This document shows, one piece after another, positions 1-37,658 of a stretch of DNA of 39,403 nt. Numbering within the stretch: the stretch's first letter is position 1; each line of letters starts with the position of its first letter. The stretch spans positions 1 to 39,403 of the forward strand of contig JAJZVZ010000024.1 of the NCBI GenBank assembly GCA_021846945.1, in the 5' to 3' direction. A program made the position numbers and the translations under genes. The notes beneath the pieces were generated by a model that was not told the DNA's origin, ran no database searches, and saw only the letters and a list, made by a program, of their open reading frames with translations. The stretch comes from Acidobacteriota bacterium (GTDB lineage Bacteria > Acidobacteriota > Terriglobia > Terriglobales > Acidobacteriaceae).

Positions 1-2350
1 GAAAGCTCGCCACCAGCCGCCCGCTACCCGCGGCCAGCAGCAGGCCCACACCAAGCCCTGTGCCCACCAGGATGGAACCCTGGCGCAGGACCATGCGCGC
101 AACGCTCTCGCGGGATGCGCCCAGCGCCATGCGCACGCCGATCTCGCGGCGCCGGTAGCCGACCAGTTGCGACAGCACGCCGACGAGGCCGGCAAAGACC
201 ATTAACACCGCAAGGCCCGCGAAAGAACTCACGAGGTACAACCCCAGCCTCTGGTTGAAGGTGTTCTTCTCGACGGCTTTCTGCATGGTTTGAAAATTGT
301 CCAGCGCGAAGCCGGGAGCATTCTGGCTGAAGACAGAACGCATCTCCGCCGCAACCGGGATGTTGCCGCGCGTCTTCACCACAAAGCTCACCACGGTCTT
401 CAAAAGCGCCTGATAAAAGAGTGAAGTGGCGGGAACCTGCTGCATGGGCAGAATCAAACAGGGCAGCACGTCGCCGCCCACGCTCCTCTGCACCTGATCG
501 CCATATACGCCCACGAGGGTGTAGGGCTTGACCATGCCGGTATCGGCCCCACCGAGGTTGATCTGCCTGCCCAGCGGATCCTGGCCGGGGAAATACTTTT
601 TGACGAAGGCCTGGTTGACGACTGCAACAAACGGAGTCGAGGCTGCATCGCTGTCGGCGATCATGCGCCCGCGGAGAACAGGCGTCCCCATAACAGCCAT
701 GTATCCGGCACTGGCTGCGGTTACCAGTGTTTCCATCGATTTGCTCTGATCTTTGGCCTGGCCCACGATTTCGAAGCTGCTTTGCACGCCCATATCGGAG
801 AGCGGCGGAGTGGTGACCAGGGCCGCGTCTTCCACGCCGGGCTCATGGCGCATTTGCTCCAGAACCGGCTGATAGACCAGCGTGGCCACGGAAGCCGGCG
901 CGTGCTCTGTATCCCCCGAAACCGCCATCTCCGAGAAGCCTGCGGCATCGGCCGGCATGGCGATGAAGGTGGTTACGCGCTCCGCGTCAAACCCGAGCCG
1001 TGAACGTTCCAGATTCCACAGCGTATGAAAGAGCAGTCCGGTTCCCACCAGCAGAAGCGTGGATAACGCAACCTCGCCCGCAACCAGGACGCCGCTCAAT
1101 CTTCCGCCCACCGAACGAGCCGACAGCCCGCGCGAAGCCGCCTGCAATGCCGCCTGCGGATGCGAACGAGCCGCCATCAGCGCCGGCAGCAGAGACGACA
1201 ATGTGGTGGTGATGATGGCAATCGCCGCGAGGACAAAGACGACCGTCCAGTGAATAGCAATCGAGTCGGCGCGCGGGATCGTGCCCTGTGGAAGCTTGCC
1301 CACCGCGGTCATGGCTGCCTGCGCAAGCGCCACACCGCCGAGGCAGCCCAGCAGGCTCAGCACCAATCCTTCAGTCAACAACTGCCGCACCAGGCGCATC
1401 CGCCCCGCGCCCAGCGCAGCGCGCACGGCAAACTCCTGGCGGCGGCCCAGGCAGCGCGCAATGAGCAGGTTCGAAACATTGGCGCAGGCAATCAACAGCA
1501 CCAGAGCCAGCGCCGCAAACAGCGCATAGAGCACCGGGCGCACCGGTCCCGTAACCACCTCCTGGTAAGGCGTTGCGCGGAATGCAACTTTTTGGTTGTA
1601 GATAGCGCTTTTGCGAATGCGCGCCGCGATCGCGTCCAATTCAGCTTGAAGCTGCGGCTGCGTGACCCCGGGGCGAAGCTTTCCCAACACGTTAAAGAAG
1701 TCGTAGCCTCTGTCCTTGAACATCTCGCCGGTCGGCTGCAGTGGCAGCCAGATGCCCTTTTGAACGTCCGGCCCCATGTCTTCCGGGAAATGAAATCCAT
1801 CCGGCATAACACCAACTATGGTGTGCGGCCTGCCGCTCACCCGCACCACCTGCCCGACGATCTTCGGATCGGCGTGGAAGTTCTGGCGCCAAATGCCCTC
1901 GGACAGGAGTACGACCGGCGCACCGTTCGACTCTCCTTCCGCTGCGGTAAAAGTCCGGCCCAGCATCGGCCGAGTGCCGAGCATGGAAAACAGGTTCGTG
2001 GTGACGCGCGGCGCGGCGACACTTTGCGAACCGTTCGGCCCCTCGATCACGGCGACGTCTTCCGAATAGCCCGCAACATCCTCAAGCAGCTTCGATTGCG
2101 CGTGAATATCCCGGTAGTTGAGCCAGGAGGTCGCGCCAGAGGTTGGCTTGTCGCTCGGGCCGCCGATGAACATCAGGCGCCCGGCATCCGCGTAGGGCAG
2201 CGGGCGGAGCAGAACATTCTCGATCACCGTGAAGATGGCCGTGTTGGCGCCGATGCCCAGCGCCAGGGTGAGAACGGCAAGCAAGGCCATCCCTGGAGTC
2301 TTGCGCAATTGGCGCAGCGCATAGCGTAGGTCGTAGAGAAGGGTCCGCAT
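1..2350 (-). CDS. ADOP-type ABC transporter permease (MacB/FtsX family), C-terminus cut by window edge
   Basis: The frame is open from an ATG at 2350 to the window edge, giving 783 visible codons. The N-terminus [20 protein letters not shown] followed by a hydrophobic stretch containing [17 protein letters not shown] is the hallmark opening of acidobacterial duplicated orphan permeases. The order is a TM helix, a MacB periplasmic core domain (about residues 50-250, with GRTFTAAEG and VVGVMPDGF-like motifs), an FtsX domain with three TM helices (containing [10 protein letters not shown]), a second periplasmic domain, and the start of the second FtsX domain ([15 protein letters not shown]). Compared with the usual family end, roughly 60 residues are missing past the edge. 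A GGAG Shine-Dalgarno lies just upstream of the ATG. Such permeases are thought to act in export or in signalling across the inner membrane with a separately encoded ATPase. No partner ATPase is adjacent, which is typical of the orphan class. The substrate is unknown. Confidence 0.93.
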
Positions 2351-9261: not shown

Positions 9262-10200
9262 CTAAATGCCAGCCAGCACCGGAGTGACTGCTGTGGCCGC
9301 GCTCTTGGAAAGAACGGCCTCGCGGGCCGGAGCCGTCTCCACCGGCACGTGAGCCAGTTCCCAGGCCTTGCGGTCCTTGAGCAGGCGGGAGACAAGAGCG
9401 GTATGCATGGCATGGCCCGCGCGTTCAGCCACGACGTGACCCTCGATGCGCCGGCCAGCCAGGGCTAGATCGCCAATCAGGTCCAGAATCTTGTGGCGCA
9501 CGTACTCATCGTCAAAACGCAGCGGGCCGTTTTCCGGGCCCCGCTCGCCGAGGATAATGGCGTTCTCAGCACAAGCGCCGCGGATGAGGCCCATATCGCG
9601 GAGGCGCTGCTCATCGGCCTTGTAGCCGAAGGTACGCGCTGGCGCAATGATGGTTCCGTACATTTCGGCGGCCAGATCCACGCAGGTTTTCTGATTTCCG
9701 ATGGGCGCGGGAAAATCAATAGCGTAGGAGATCTTGTAGCCGGAGCCGGGATAGACGCCGATGAACTTGTCGCCTTCGCGCACCTCCACGGGGTGCAGCA
9801 CGCGGATCGTCTCGCGGCGGCGGCGCTGGGTGCGGATGCCGACGCGCAGAAAGGCCTCGACGTAGGGCATCGAGCTGCCATCGAGGATCGGCAGCTCCAG
9901 GTTGTCCAGCTCGATGATCGCGTTGTCTACGCCCATGCCGATGAGCGCGGAGAGCAGATGTTCGGTGGTGGAAATGAGCACGCCCTGGCGCATAAGGCTG
10001 GTGGCGTAACTGACCTTGGCCACATTCCGGCTGATGGCGGGAATCTCAAAGTTGTCCAGATCGGTGCGGCGGAAGACAATGCCTGACCCAGCTGGAGCCG
10101 GCATGATCCGCATCGTAACCGGTGCCCCGGAATGCAAACCAATACCCTCAAATTCGATGGGCGCGGCGATGGTCTGTTCCAGATGCGCGAGATGAGCCAA
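9262..10200 (-). CDS. lpxC: UDP-3-O-acyl-N-acetylglucosamine deacetylase
   Basis: LpxC is the zinc enzyme that catalyses the first committed step of lipid A synthesis in the cytoplasm. The sequence shows the N-terminal GIGLHSG motif, STTEHLLSAL (zinc His about residue 81), HKILDLIGD (zinc His about 236 and Asp about 240) and the C-terminal ERAGHAMH motif with the catalytic His (about 263). The length (312 residues) is normal for the family. No ATG is available. I chose TTG at 10200 because GGGAGA lies 7 bases upstream and the N-terminus then matches the family; TTG at 10215 is the alternative and adds five residues. The presence of LpxC implies an LPS-bearing outer membrane. The nearest upstream gene is divergent, so lpxC has its own promoter in 10201-10407. 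Confidence 0.96.
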   Translation of the reverse strand: MAHLAHLEQTIAAPIEFEGIGLHSGAPVTMRIMPAPAGSGIVFRRTDLDNFEIPAISRNVAKVSYATSLMRQGVLISTTEHLLSALIGMGVDNAIIELDNLELPILDGSSMPYVEAFLRVGIRTQRRRRETIRVLHPVEVREGDKFIGVYPGSGYKISYAIDFPAPIGNQKTCVDLAAEMYGTIIAPARTFGYKADEQRLRDMGLIRGACAENAIILGERGPENGPLRFDDEYVRHKILDLIGDLALAGRRIEGHVVAERAGHAMHTALVSRLLKDRKAWELAHVPVETAPAREAVLSKSAATAVTPVLAGI

Positions 10201-10407
10201 AATTGATTCTCCCAATGAGGAAACCGTATTCCACCCATTAGATTAGACGGGAACCCCGAAATCCGATGTGTGGCAATTTTGCCACACTCTGCACCTGCCG
10301 GACCACTGATTGAATCGACGCATCACCTTCCCGTCCGCCCCTAACAATCGTAGAATCAGTGGATCGCAGTATTTGCCGCCGAAGGTCCTCCGCTGAAAGG
10401 GCATTGC

Positions 10408-23287: not shown

Positions 23288-24376
23288 CTATTCGTTCGCC
23301 GGATCTTCCTCTTCGGCTTGTTTGTCGGCCAGCTTCTCAAGCTGGTTGCGCCAGTCGAGGGACTCGACAAAGGCTCGTGATTCGCGCCAGCCCGGCTCCA
23401 CAATGATGTGCAGTTCCAGATAGACGCGCGTTCCGAGCAGTGATTCAATCTTCATGCGGGCGCCAGCGCCGATAGCCTTGAGCTTGGAACCGCCCTTGCC
23501 GATCAGGATCGCCTTCTGGCCGTCGCGTTCACAGTAGATGGCCGCGGAGATGCGAGTGAGCGGCTTCTTGCCGCTTTTGGGCGGCTCCGGCTCCGGCTCT
23601 TCAAAGCTCTCGATGACCACGGCGGAGGCGTAAGGTACTTCCTCGCCGGTCTCAATCAAGATGCTTTCCCGAATCAGCTCAGCCACCATGAAACGCATGG
23701 GCTGATCAGTGTACTGGTCCTTTGGATAGTAGCGTTCCCCGGTGGGCAAGACTTCGACGATCTTGCGAAGGAGCAGATCGAGGCCGTCGCGTTTGCGCGC
23801 GCTCACGGGAATCACCTGGGTAAAGTTGTACTGCTTTGTCAGCATTTCAATGAGCGGAAGAAGCTGATCTTTCTGGACCAGGTCGATCTTGGTGAGAACG
23901 AGGAAGACCGGGCAGTCGAGCTTGCGGATGAGGCCGAAGAGAAATTCGTCTTCGCTGGCCCAACTGGGAGAAGCGGGTGCCCCAGGTTCCGTCCGCCGCG
24001 GCGGAGTGACCTGGGAAGAATCGGAGCCAAGCTGCACCCTGCGCGTTGCGTCGATCAGCACCAGCACAAGATCGCGGGCCTCCAGTGCCTCGTAGACCTC
24101 CTGCAACATGCGGCGGTCCAGATGCGAGCCCGGCTTGTGCACGCCGGGCGTATCCACAAAGACGATCTGCGCCGCCGGGTGAACTCCCTTGCGCGCAGGC
24201 ACCTCAACCACACCGGCGATGCGGTTGCGGGTGGTCTGCGGCTTGGCGGTGACAATGGCTACTTTTTCGCCAGTGAGGGCGTTGAGCAGCGTACTTTTGC
24301 CCACGTTGGGGCGGCCGAGAATGGCAACGAATCCGGATTTCAAGTGGAATGATTCTCCTGACTGAGTGTACGGCAT
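23288..24376 (-). CDS. era: GTPase Era, with an in-frame repeat-derived insertion
   Basis: Era binds the 3' end of 16S rRNA and acts in 30S subunit assembly. G1 is GRPNVGKST, G2 the TTRNRI region, G3 VDTPGVHKPG, G4 appears as TKID (not the usual NKxD), and G5 is VSARKRDG. The KH domain has the IGKGGSKLKAIG motif. At 362 residues it is longer than the usual 300. The excess is mainly about 24 residues between G3 and G4 (about 118-141, containing VTPPRRTEPGAPASPS), encoded by a hairpin repeat at 23981-24015, plus a short EPEPEPP linker before the KH domain. ATG 24376 was used, but TTG 24343 (giving MKSGFVAILG) fits the family N-terminus well and has AGGAG upstream. It lies downstream of the corC-like gene in the same direction. 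Confidence 0.95.
   Translation of the reverse strand: MPYTQSGESFHLKSGFVAILGRPNVGKSTLLNALTGEKVAIVTAKPQTTRNRIAGVVEVPARKGVHPAAQIVFVDTPGVHKPGSHLDRRMLQEVYEALEARDLVLVLIDATRRVQLGSDSSQVTPPRRTEPGAPASPSWASEDEFLFGLIRKLDCPVFLVLTKIDLVQKDQLLPLIEMLTKQYNFTQVIPVSARKRDGLDLLLRKIVEVLPTGERYYPKDQYTDQPMRFMVAELIRESILIETGEEVPYASAVVIESFEEPEPEPPKSGKKPLTRISAAIYCERDGQKAILIGKGGSKLKAIGAGARMKIESLLGTRVYLELHIIVEPGWRESRAFVESLDWRNQLEKLADKQAEEEDPANE
23981..24015 (-). repeat. Palindromic repeat inside the era coding sequence
   Basis: A 35-base hairpin: outer arms CCCAGGT and ACCTGGG, inner perfect 14-base palindrome TCCGCCGCGGCGGA. Read on the gene strand it is followed by GGGGCACCCG, and the 14-mer ACCTGGGGCACCCG is identical to one at 30353-30366. 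It lies in frame and encodes the proline-rich insertion of Era. Confidence 0.65.
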
Positions 24377-24411
24377 TCTCGGCACGCGGAATGCAAACCG
24401 ATCTCCACGTC

Positions 24412-29911: not shown

Positions 29912-30574
29912 TCAATATCGAGCCGAGACTCCTGCGGATGGAAATCGCAGTCCGGTGCGCATTTCCAGCGCAAAGGGCGTTTCCTTATCCGTCCGCAACT
30001 CCCAGCCCAGACCGTGAAGAATACCCGCTTCGATGCCTGTAATCGTTACGCCTTCGTCGGAGAGAATTTCGGACTCCCAGGCCTGTCCGCCGCGTCCCCA
30101 GGCCAGGATCGAGCGATTGCCGACAAACAGCAGCACGCCCTCCGCGACTGCGGGGCGTACTTCCAGCACCGGGCGGTAGGCGATCATGGTGAAGCGCTCC
30201 GGCGCCGTGGTGTCGATGATGTAGGCGTAGCCGCCTGAGACCACGCAGGTTTCTTCCGGCCTGGGCGCGGACCAGATGCCGGTGGGCACAACTGGATCGC
30301 GAAAACCGAGGGCGCAGGTAGCGAGAAAGCGATCCCATGTCTCAGAAGCGAGACCTGGGGCACCCGGCGTCGGCGCAGTTTCCGAGGTCCCTCCACAACG
30401 TCGCACGGTATCTGGAGCACCCGGGCGGATCATCACCTCCAGTGCGCCGCGCTCGACCTCCTCGGCTTGCCGCGGATAGACAAAGTGACGGGCAGGCAGA
30501 ATTGCGGGCCGCGCCGCAAGCACCTCGGCCTGCCAGCGATGAGGAAAGCTGTAATCGATCGTTGGCGCGGTCAT
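29912..30574 (-). CDS. Conserved-looking hypothetical protein with in-frame repeat-derived insertion
   Basis: A 220-residue cytoplasmic protein I cannot assign. The clearest segments are LATCALGFRDPVVPTGIWS, GGYAYIIDTTAPERFTMI and LLFVGNRSILAWG, which look like a beta-rich fold. Residues about 52-81 (including VRRCGGTSETAPTPGAPGL) are low in predicted structure and match the translated antisense of the palindromic repeat at 30334-30367, so they look like an insertion. ATG 30574 overlaps the stop of the phosphatase gene as ATGA, so the two are translationally coupled and may work together. An earlier in-frame start at 30601 is not needed. Confidence 0.75.
   Translation of the reverse strand: MTAPTIDYSFPHRWQAEVLAARPAILPARHFVYPRQAEEVERGALEVMIRPGAPDTVRRCGGTSETAPTPGAPGLASETWDRFLATCALGFRDPVVPTGIWSAPRPEETCVVSGGYAYIIDTTAPERFTMIAYRPVLEVRPAVAEGVLLFVGNRSILAWGRGGQAWESEILSDEGVTITGIEAGILHGLGWELRTDKETPFALEMRTGLRFPSAGVSARY
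30334..30367 (+). repeat. Palindromic repeat inside the 29912-30574 coding sequence
   Basis: Arms CCCA-GTCTC (30334-30343) and GAGAC-TGGG (30350-30359) around the loop AGAAGC are followed by GGCACCCGG. It shares the 14-mer ACCTGGGGCACCCG and the CCCA.GTC left arm with the repeat inside era, but is inserted in the opposite orientation relative to its host gene. Confidence 0.65.
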
Positions 30575-31059
30575 GGCTCGGCCTCGTAGCGCAGAATCCA
30601 TCGCAGTTGTTCGTCGGTATTCGGAACGGGGCAGCCGCGGGCTGCTTCAATCGCGTTGAGCGCGGCTTGCGGCTTCCAGCCCAAATGGATGAGCGCGCAT
30701 GCCGCGGTTATGGTGGACCGGCCGATGCTGCCGCGGCAGTGTACGCCGATCTTTTCGCCGGCGCGCAGCCGCCCTGCCAGACCCGTCACAAAGTTGCGAA
30801 AGGCATCCGTATCGGCTGGAACGCTGACGTCGTGAATGGGAAACGAAAGGAACCGCAGGCCAGCCTGCGTGGAAAAATGCGCTTCTTCGGCCAAGCCAAG
30901 CCAGCGGGCCTCGTCCTCTTCGAGCAGCGAGACGACGGTTTCGACGCCTCCCTGCCGAAGCCGGAGCATGTCGCGCTGGAGTTGCTCCTGCCAGGCCGGG
31001 CACAACACAATAGCCAGCGGGGGAGGCGGATTCCCTCCAATCCAGAAAATACCGGTCAT
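30571..31059 (-). CDS. Dual-specificity/tyrosine protein phosphatase-like protein
   Basis: A 162-residue cysteine phosphatase. The P-loop VHCRGSIGRST gives Cys 108 and Arg 114 of the CX5R motif, and an upstream IHDVSVPAD holds the probable general acid Asp (77 or 83). The size fits a minimal dual-specificity phosphatase domain. Targets could be phosphotyrosine, phosphoserine or phosphorylated small molecules. ATG 31059 has AGGAG 9 bases upstream; ATG 31077 is also in frame. Its stop overlaps the next gene's start (ATGA), and thiL lies 187 bp upstream on the same strand. Confidence 0.88.
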   Translation of the reverse strand: MTGIFWIGGNPPPPLAIVLCPAWQEQLQRDMLRLRQGGVETVVSLLEEDEARWLGLAEEAHFSTQAGLRFLSFPIHDVSVPADTDAFRNFVTGLAGRLRAGEKIGVHCRGSIGRSTITAACALIHLGWKPQAALNAIEAARGCPVPNTDEQLRWILRYEAEP

Positions 31060-36676: not shown

Positions 36677-36752
36677 GCTGGCGTAGCTCAGCTGGTAGAG
36701 CATCTGATTTGTAATCAGAGGGTCGGGGGTTCAAATCCCTTCGCCAGCTCCA
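36677..36752 (+). tRNA. tRNA-Thr (anticodon UGU)
   Basis: A 76-base cloverleaf with acceptor GCTGGCG/CGCCAGC, D-arm GCTCAGCTGGTAGAGC, anticodon stem TCTGA/TCAGA with loop TTTGTAA giving UGU, T-arm GGGGGTTCAAATCCC-type, and an encoded CCA end. It reads ACA codons. It is the first tRNA of the tuf-linked cluster. Confidence 0.96.
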
Positions 36753-36963
36753 CGTTGCGGAGGCTTTTTTGGGGGGGCGAGGACGGCAAGAGTTTTGACC
36801 GGCGTGTTCTGTTGAGCGCCAGGCCTGTCCTCCGCGGTAATTCCACTGAGGTGCATGCTCCGAAACACCGGAGGTTCTCCGGAAGAGGTGTGATGCGCGG
36901 AAGGAATTGCGGAGGGGGCAAGTTAGGCAGCCTTGCGGCACGATTTCGTCGCCGGGCGATTGG

Positions 36964-37052
36964 GCACAGGTGGCCGAGTGGTTAATGGCAGCAGACTGTA
37001 AATCTGCCGCTCCTTGCGAGCTACGGAGGTTCGAATCCTCCCCTGTGCACCA
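36964..37052 (+). tRNA. tRNA-Tyr (anticodon GUA)
   Basis: A class II tRNA of 89 bases with acceptor GCACAGG/CCTGTGC, anticodon stem GCAGA/TCTGC with loop CTGTAAA giving GUA, a long variable arm (CGCTCCTTGCGAGCTACG region), T-loop GTTCGAATCC and encoded CCA. It lies 211 bp after tRNA-Thr(UGU). Confidence 0.96.
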
Positions 37053-37069
37053 CGGTTTGAGGTGCTTCA

Positions 37070-37375
37070 ATGCGCAGATGGTGGCAGAGCGGCGAACGTG
37101 CCGGCCAGAAGCGCAGAGGTGAGGATCTTTACAGTACCGGTTCCGATTTGGACCGGAAGTACTGGACGGCGCTGGCCCTGTACGCGATATTGGCAGGGCT
37201 GGTCTGGTTCACGATGGATGCGGGCACGGTTCTTGTGATGGGCAGGCCCGTGCAAATGCGGTTGATTCCGCTGGTGGTCATCGGCGGGCTGGCTTTGCGC
37301 ACGGTGCTGGCCCGGCACGCGGATAAAATTCGCCACAGCGGGGAGGATGGCGGCAGTTCGGCATCCCGAAGTTAG
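37070..37375 (+). CDS. Small membrane protein encoded between tRNA genes (101 aa)
   Basis: The product has a basic N-terminus, then two TM helices (about residues 33-50, ALALYAILAGLVWFTM, and about 64-80, LIPLVVIGGLALRTVLA), and a hydrophilic Ser-rich tail. GAGGTG lies 5 bases before ATG 37070, and the gene begins only 17 bases after the CCA of tRNA-Tyr and ends 9 bases before the next tRNA, so it must share the tRNA transcript. Its function is unknown, and its location suggests cotranscription with tRNAs and tuf. Confidence 0.75.
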   Translation: MRRWWQSGERAGQKRRGEDLYSTGSDLDRKYWTALALYAILAGLVWFTMDAGTVLVMGRPVQMRLIPLVVIGGLALRTVLARHADKIRHSGEDGGSSASRS

Positions 37376-37384
37376 GTTTAGAGG

Positions 37385-37460
<76 letters not shown>

Positions 37461-37583
37461 GAAATGCAGCAGGCAGCTTACAGTTGTCAGTTTTCCAGCA
37501 GCGCAAGGGATGGACAGGGGTCGATGCCTTATCGGCAAGGAAGAAACTGTTAGCTGCGAACTGATAGCTGATAGCTGTTTCGG

Positions 37584-37658
37584 GCGGGAGTAACTCAGTG
37601 GTAGAGTCACAGCCTTCCAAGCTGTTGGTCGCGGGTTCGAGTCCCGTCTCCCGCTCCA
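37584..37658 (+). tRNA. tRNA-Gly (anticodon UCC)
   Basis: A 75-base cloverleaf with acceptor GCGGGAG/CTCCCGC, anticodon stem ACAGC/GCTGT with loop CTTCCAA giving UCC, T-arm CGGGTTCGAGTCCCG and encoded CCA. The 123-bp spacer before it contains inverted and tandem AACTGATAGCTGATAGCTG-like motifs. Confidence 0.96.

Follow-up and report, generated by a model that had tools for sequence, protein, structure and literature searches.

In the REPtron layout, as outlined in the section of PMC2817692 cited here, two inverted REP copies flank a RAYT gene. According to the parts of PMC6006769 used here, REP classes 2.6 and 3 have other feet, REP-like structures with a different foot occur in Solibacter, and the subclass 2.4 tnpA-REP genes contain a REP in frame between their catalytic motifs, in a peripheral variable region. 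The corresponding sections of PMC3733652 describe related tyrosine transposases (TIRYT) lying between inverted repeats in Koribacter, Terriglobus, Acidobacterium and Granulicella, with one Koribacter set of these TIR repeats constituting a dispersed family. The same sections deal with RPEs, palindromic repeats situated in frame in genes that are likely still functional, with the intragenic REPs that Di Nocera and colleagues (2013) found in ORFs of various species, including those of DNA repair and RNA-binding proteins, and with REPs occupying about the same recB site in two Xanthomonas species. In-frame REPs and RPEs in genes are already known, in other phyla, from these portions of the two sources (PMC3733652, PMC6006769). 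In the passages considered, era appears in PMC5771137 only as an entry of a pangenome list and the palindromic repeats treated there are CRISPRs, and PMC3174227 reports many short repeats in Solibacter, with nothing found on in-gene palindromes. The open-licence literature, covered through titles and abstract openings and in part through Era by name, yielded nothing on Era-internal repeats or on the acidobacterial family described below.

A palindromic repeat in frame within era

We analyzed a stretch of 39,403 nucleotides (hereafter the window), a single contig from a genome of 5.3 Mb in 339 contigs. The relevant features are the following:

23288-24385, minus strand: era, ribosome-assembly GTPase; 365 codons, GTG start, open throughout, with MMR_HSR1 and KH_2 domains
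23954-24025, minus strand: the Era insert, codons 121-144 (coordinates from the gene start); low-confidence in the structure model, probably disordered
23974-24015, minus strand, sense to era: REP-like repeat, long double-stem form, 42 nt; codons 124-138
29912-30601, minus strand: gene holding the second copy, no Pfam match; the copy lies in frame between ERGALEVMIRP and FLATCALGF
30334-30366, plus strand, antisense to its gene: REP-like repeat, short form, 33 nt; read PGAPGLASETW

The window also contains a cluster of four tRNA genes at 36677-37655 (Rfam RF00005).

Era is an essential protein. The window protein is identified as such by NCBIfam NF000908 (341.5 bits versus a cut-off of 237), possesses both the G domain and the KH domain, and is related to solved Era over its length; it is the sole strong Era match of its own genome, where the next one listed stands at E 5.7e-15. 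An AlphaFold model obtained with 41 sequences (the window and its loci) displays the Era fold with a mean pLDDT of 82.6, and its best solved match is 3iev (TM 0.89 on the target's length). When the protein is aligned with Staphylococcus aureus Era (9jkp), the segments stop at query residue 120 and restart at 145, joining at target residue 103; from this break we deduce that about 24 extra residues (121-144) are present, in agreement with the preliminary description, which had placed them between the G3 and G4 motifs, where we too take the loop to lie. In the model, residues 121-140 sit between the strand 106-112 and the helix 145-153, and their mean pLDDT (48 for residues 121-130 and 54 for 131-140) is compatible with a disordered loop.

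On the era strand, positions 24015-23974 read CCCAGGTCACTCCGCCGCGGCGGACGGAACCTGGGGCACCCG, a 35-base double-stem hairpin that, together with the following GCACCCG, amounts to 42 bases; the in-frame hairpin previously noticed in Era is indeed present. It supplies 13 whole codons and parts of two others (124-138), read SQVTPPRRTEPGAP. Folded as single-stranded DNA, a 51-nt stretch with this copy reaches -13.6 kcal/mol (z -2.79), and only 3 of 200 shuffles are as good. The same unit had been proposed to recur at 30334: the copy found there belongs to the same family and lies within a gene, but it is of the short, 33-base form, lacks the inner TCCGCCGCGGCGGA and runs antisense to its gene, whereas the Era copy is sense. 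Alone, the 30334-30366 copy folds no better than shuffled sequences (z -0.84).

In a model search of the homologues of the 29912-30601 gene, the repeat at this site was found in the window's own locus only and in none of the 15 other loci; one other model match among the 16 loci lies elsewhere in L126. In several homologues, ERGALEV and FLATCALGF are separated by just a few residues. Like the Era genes considered below, these homologues (L115-L130) are strongly variable at one place, and at this place L121 (genome G016) has a long insert of another kind. The stretch 30392-30423 (E 0.57), next to the 30334 copy in the same gene, may be a third, degenerate copy or a chance match.

The repeat family and its RAYT genes

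The repeat exists in a short 33-base form and a double-stem form of 42 or 43 bases, both of which end in GGGGCACCC. The foot of the hairpin, CCCAGG, has GGGTGC before it, and the canonical 5' foot tetranucleotide GT[AG]G is absent. The pattern CTGGGGCACCCG occurs at 7 places in the window's own genome, compared to 0 for the reversed pattern, and all 7 are preceded by a hairpin-like stretch starting with CCCA; the usual form among them is CCCAGGTCTC-loop-GAGACCTGGG, the copies in Era, C121 and C272 being variants. Elsewhere in this genome, the copies listed include 7 of the double-stem form, five with 43 bases, one with 42 and one with 39. In the window, GGGGCACCCG is found twice (0.22 occurrences expected; 0 of 100 shuffles had two). 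A search with GGGGCACCCG alone was discarded as too weak, giving 19 matches versus 12 for the reversed pattern; therefore, a covariance model (R1) was built from 8 copies outside Era, including the window copy at 30334-30366.

R1 recovers both window copies (E 3e-9 and 2e-4). Over the whole genome it detects 53 places at E<=1, and 25 of these pass E<1e-3; both counts include the building copies. Sixty genomes were searched. Matches are present in all 36 genomes of the window's genus-level group, and in 1 of the 24 other genomes of the class, with one weak match (E 0.0025). The group consists of Terracidiphilus/Occallatibacter relatives and comprises Terracidiphilus gabretensis S55 (L169 = G005) and Occallatibacter savannae AB23 (L175 = G009), as judged by matching Era sequences. 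The number of copies ranges from at least 4 to at least 111 per group genome, these counts being lower bounds with up to 118 candidates scored in each genome.

How often the repeat resides in genes was assessed with a strict coding score on 123 distinct scorable copies. These comprise 43 from the own genome, 54 from relatives (56 less 2 at contig edges) and 33 from a further 34 (1 at an edge), minus 7 already scored and removed by coordinate matching. Five of the 123 (~4%) lie in genes other than era. This is a low estimate, given that the score missed the in-gene copy at 30334, which it rates only as 'maybe'; furthermore, the relatives' copies lean young because they were sampled as the best-scoring R1 matches plus their neighbors in the same loci. 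The further genomic copies anticipated in the preliminary description thus exist, and most of those sampled are intergenic, as befits the short, many-copy palindromes called REPs.

Of the 7 Y1_Tnp matches in the own genome, two are bracketed by repeat copies in inverted orientation:

C277, repeat 9646-9678 (minus), gene, repeat 10249-10281 (plus): REPtron, from R1 and Y1_Tnp matches
C92 (L229, C92:1299-1946), repeat 1299-1331 (minus), gene, repeat 1914-1946 (plus): REPtron, from R1 and Y1_Tnp matches

The intact C277 gene (L228:1354-1986) belongs to the REP_Tyr_transpos equivalog (NF047646; 99.4 bits versus a cut-off of 80), and the HuH and Y motifs of the RAYT can be read by eye (EHVH, WQ, YLHRNP). 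The C92 gene, at 42 bits, is under the NF047646 cut-off of 80; it seems to be split over two frames and perhaps represents a decaying REPtron. Of the 36 group genomes, 28 have RAYT homologues at E<=0.001, in part weak ones, as have 6 of the 24 others. The inverted pair, its left copy on the minus strand and its right copy on the plus strand, recurs in 10 of 30 RAYT loci, 26 of the 30 being from the group. Since inverted copies around a RAYT gene are the REPtron layout, we regard the repeat as a REP, albeit one whose tag is non-canonical. The likeness to Rickettsia palindromic elements suggested earlier holds insofar as an intergenic-type repeat stands in frame in Era; the tie to RAYT genes, however, makes the family REP rather than RPE. 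Copy number and RAYT number were not correlated (Spearman 0.25, p 0.14), no RAYT match was obtained in 8 genomes of the group that have 10 to 102 copies, and copy number was not higher in Era carriers than in non-carriers (p 0.66).

The Era loop across the group

The position of the repeat within Era recurs in related species. In 30 Era loci (115.8 kb), R1 gives 14 matches at E<=0.0041, every one inside the loop, and these are spread over 13 loci; the loop is readable in 29 of the 30, L053 being truncated by the end of its contig. The 80 Era loci of named records gave 16 matches at E<=0.01, of which 5 lie outside the loop and 11 within it, 5 of the 11 being genes already counted in the 30-locus set. 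The flanks of the Era loci, together with the sampled in-gene rate given above, served as controls. When the strict coding score is applied to 13 Era copies, 12 come out as in-gene and one as 'maybe'. The Era loop is the most frequent in-gene place of the REP found so far in the group. One carrier, G002 (L048), is a single-contig genome of 6.0 Mb, which argues against an assembly error.

The two overlapping sets (110 loci) were reduced to 54 distinct Era genes of the group by leaving out duplicates, the more distant L182, L183, L184, L192 and L193 (three of which serve as outgroup), and the loci in which the anchors failed (L053, L209, L165 and L188-L222, except L190, L194, L197 and the distant ones). 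Among the 54, 19 carry the REP in the loop (model matches, E<0.005): 12 in sense orientation, 5 in antisense orientation read RVPQV..PG or a close variant, and 2 in antisense orientation in another frame, hence both orientations and three combinations of orientation and frame. Three further genes (L151, L160, L162) contain nested relics, 4 have a different repeat family and 28 are empty; 5 of the empty loops (L158, L150, L152, L186, L049) are ambiguous and were counted once as empty and once dropped. The state labels are partly by eye: the 19 rest on the R1 threshold, the 3 nested and 4 second-family rows on reading, with weak partial matches in L151 and L162 and a weaker one in L160. Double filling is seen in L166, by two families, and in L056, by two REP copies. 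Loop length varies from 19 to 86 residues and the content is mostly unalignable; the insert is not a conserved acidobacterial feature. Consistently with its expected absence elsewhere, in 15 of the 17 other-family genomes listed with two Era segments per contig the segments overlap or are at most 12 bases apart, the exceptions being G037 and G045.

Some of these loops have peculiar contents. In L151, L160 and L162, a short motif, CTTCGACAAGCTCAGG or CTTCGACGAGCTCAGG (FDKLRAG or FDELRTG), is nested in the REP hairpin, which looks like one repeat inserted in another. In L178 and L180, further hairpins end in TGGGGCAC with other stems (CCCACCCTTGTG..CACAAGGA and CCCATCCGC..GCGGATGGGA), so that the REP family may hold more subfamilies than were modelled.

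The REP is not the only repeat in this loop, which has taken up at least two further families in related species. The GGGGCTAAAGCCC family (pattern TCAGGGGCTAAAGCCC) has 84, 19 and 32 copies in G031, G010 and G011 and 3 in the own genome, with 0 copies in two outside genomes and 0 for the reversed pattern. The second, TCATCCTGAGCGNAGCG, belongs to the TCATCCTGAGCG family, with 17, 16 and 4 copies in G031, G010 and G011; the own genome and G036 have none, and G054, from outside the group, has 3.

On a tree computed from the era DNA on either side of the loop, with 54 rows, 3 outgroup rows and good support for 24 of 54 inner branches, presence or absence of the repeat takes at least 13 changes, orientation and frame among the carriers at least 5, and the five states together 17 to 19; these parsimony counts do not tell gain from loss. 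Supported sisters often differ in the content of the loop: L048 has a reverse REP and L157 is empty, L166 has a reverse REP plus a second repeat and L190 is empty, and L167 has a sense REP where L168 has the GGGGCTAAAGCCC family.

Taken together, these data make it quite probable that one permissive loop of an essential GTPase has recurrently taken up REPs, which are probably RAYT-mobilized, as well as other repeats. The Era insert would be a copy of the REP typical of the group (hairpin plus GGGTGC/GCACCC tag). A RAYT of the IS200/IS605 kind would most likely mobilize it through single-stranded hairpin DNA, with the copies settling mostly between genes. A copy landing in the Era loop, from the G3-side strand to the next helix, could survive if the frame is kept, since the loop appears to tolerate disordered stretches of some 20 to 80 residues. 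Copies would have landed, decayed and been replaced repeatedly among these species, REPs in either orientation as well as members of other repeat families; the loop would thereby act as a safe harbor in which repeat DNA becomes new protein sequence. We infer that the RAYT moves these copies, and the pattern presumably arose by insertion and not by gene conversion or by transfer of era alleles. The insert is probably translated and neutral, leaving Era to work normally. A further step, namely that the loop is a lineage-wide landing pad which repeats enter far more often than other coding DNA, either because the site is favored or because Era is modulated, is conceivable but rather doubtful.

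That the common ancestor of the group acquired the insert once, long ago, and that divergence, REP gene conversion and loss did the rest, with few or no new landings, seems unlikely to us. Such a history would account for the double-stem form shared by the Era genes of the window and of L145, for the weak in-loop match of L184 (E 0.016), which is outside the 54, and for the decayed look-alikes that can be seen by eye in L150 and L152. The scored sense copies also share one reading frame, which fits common descent of some of them and, equally, selection. On the other hand, the same loop holds reverse copies in two frames as well as other families, the separation of reverse copies from everything else takes at least 6 changes on the flank tree, and close, supported neighbors differ in family (L161 with GGGGCTAAAGCCC versus L149/L194 with a reverse REP). 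Neither a clean empty site or target duplication nor the element boundaries can be read from the sister loops, for the empty site and duplication because the loop is hypervariable.

Still less probable is that the hairpin functions in the era mRNA or DNA, for instance in translation control or RNA stability, and is kept by selection. The window copy does fold well (z -2.79) and several Era copies keep their paired arms although the letters have changed, but such pairing is expected of a recent REP copy too; moreover, the 28 of 54 Era genes without a recognized repeat (five of them ambiguous), with loops down to 19 residues, and the acceptance of other families and of both orientations speak against such a role. 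Finally, a compositionally biased linker resembling the repeat by chance can be practically dismissed: the proline- and alanine-rich loops are GC-rich, but a model free of Era copies gives E values down to 2.7e-9, the 14 best matches of the 30 Era loci are confined to the loop and the reverse matches are full-length, so that chance is excluded for the strong carriers and could hold for loops without a match.

Repeated entry of REPs and other repeats into the Era loop thus remains our preferred reading. The preliminary description, according to which a palindromic repeat has been taken into the Era coding sequence, is supported; the tie to RAYT genes and the many fillings of the same loop in relatives, by more than one repeat family, go beyond it. 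DNA of a parasitic, mobile type is now part of a vital protein, Era, in a group of soil Acidobacteria. The 54 related Era genes form a natural series in which one loop is empty, filled once, twice, or by different repeats, and this series makes testable the passage of mobile DNA into protein sequence, the tolerance of an essential GTPase to insertion and the action of RAYTs inside genes. If the loop were truly a landing pad, mobile DNA would keep supplying possibly useful disordered sequence to a ribosome-assembly factor.

Comparison with described elements

The RPEs resemble the present repeat in their in-frame place in otherwise normal protein-coding genes (here Era and the 29912-30601 gene). 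They differ in belonging to another phylum and in length, RPE-1 being called longer in the cited part of PMC3733652, a distinction drawn by description; furthermore, the present repeat is tied to RAYT genes, and only ~4% of its sampled copies are in genes. The acidobacterial TIR repeats were likewise compared by description: their shared motif GGGGWSAS, as given in that source, does not fit GGGGCACC by eye, and no mention of in-gene copies was found in the sections of PMC3733652 covered.

The REP/RAYT REPtrons are the closest match. They share with the family described here the short hairpin, the one-sided conserved tag, the many, mostly intergenic copies, the confinement to a related group, and the inverted copies flanking a REP_Tyr_transpos gene. 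Unlike in canonical REPs, the tag is GGGTGC/GCACCC and not GTAG or CGTC, and the RAYT motifs, read by eye, match exactly no row of Table 1 of PMC6006769. As for location within genes, the host gene in subclass 2.4 is the transposase itself, whereas here it is a housekeeping GTPase; the intragenic-REP section of PMC3733652 does not name Era and reports no recurrence at one site across many species, in both orientations and with several families. As far as we have seen, this REP family, with its tag and its RAYT, is new. More importantly, it also appears to be new that one loop of an essential protein has been occupied again and again, by several repeat families and in a whole group of species.
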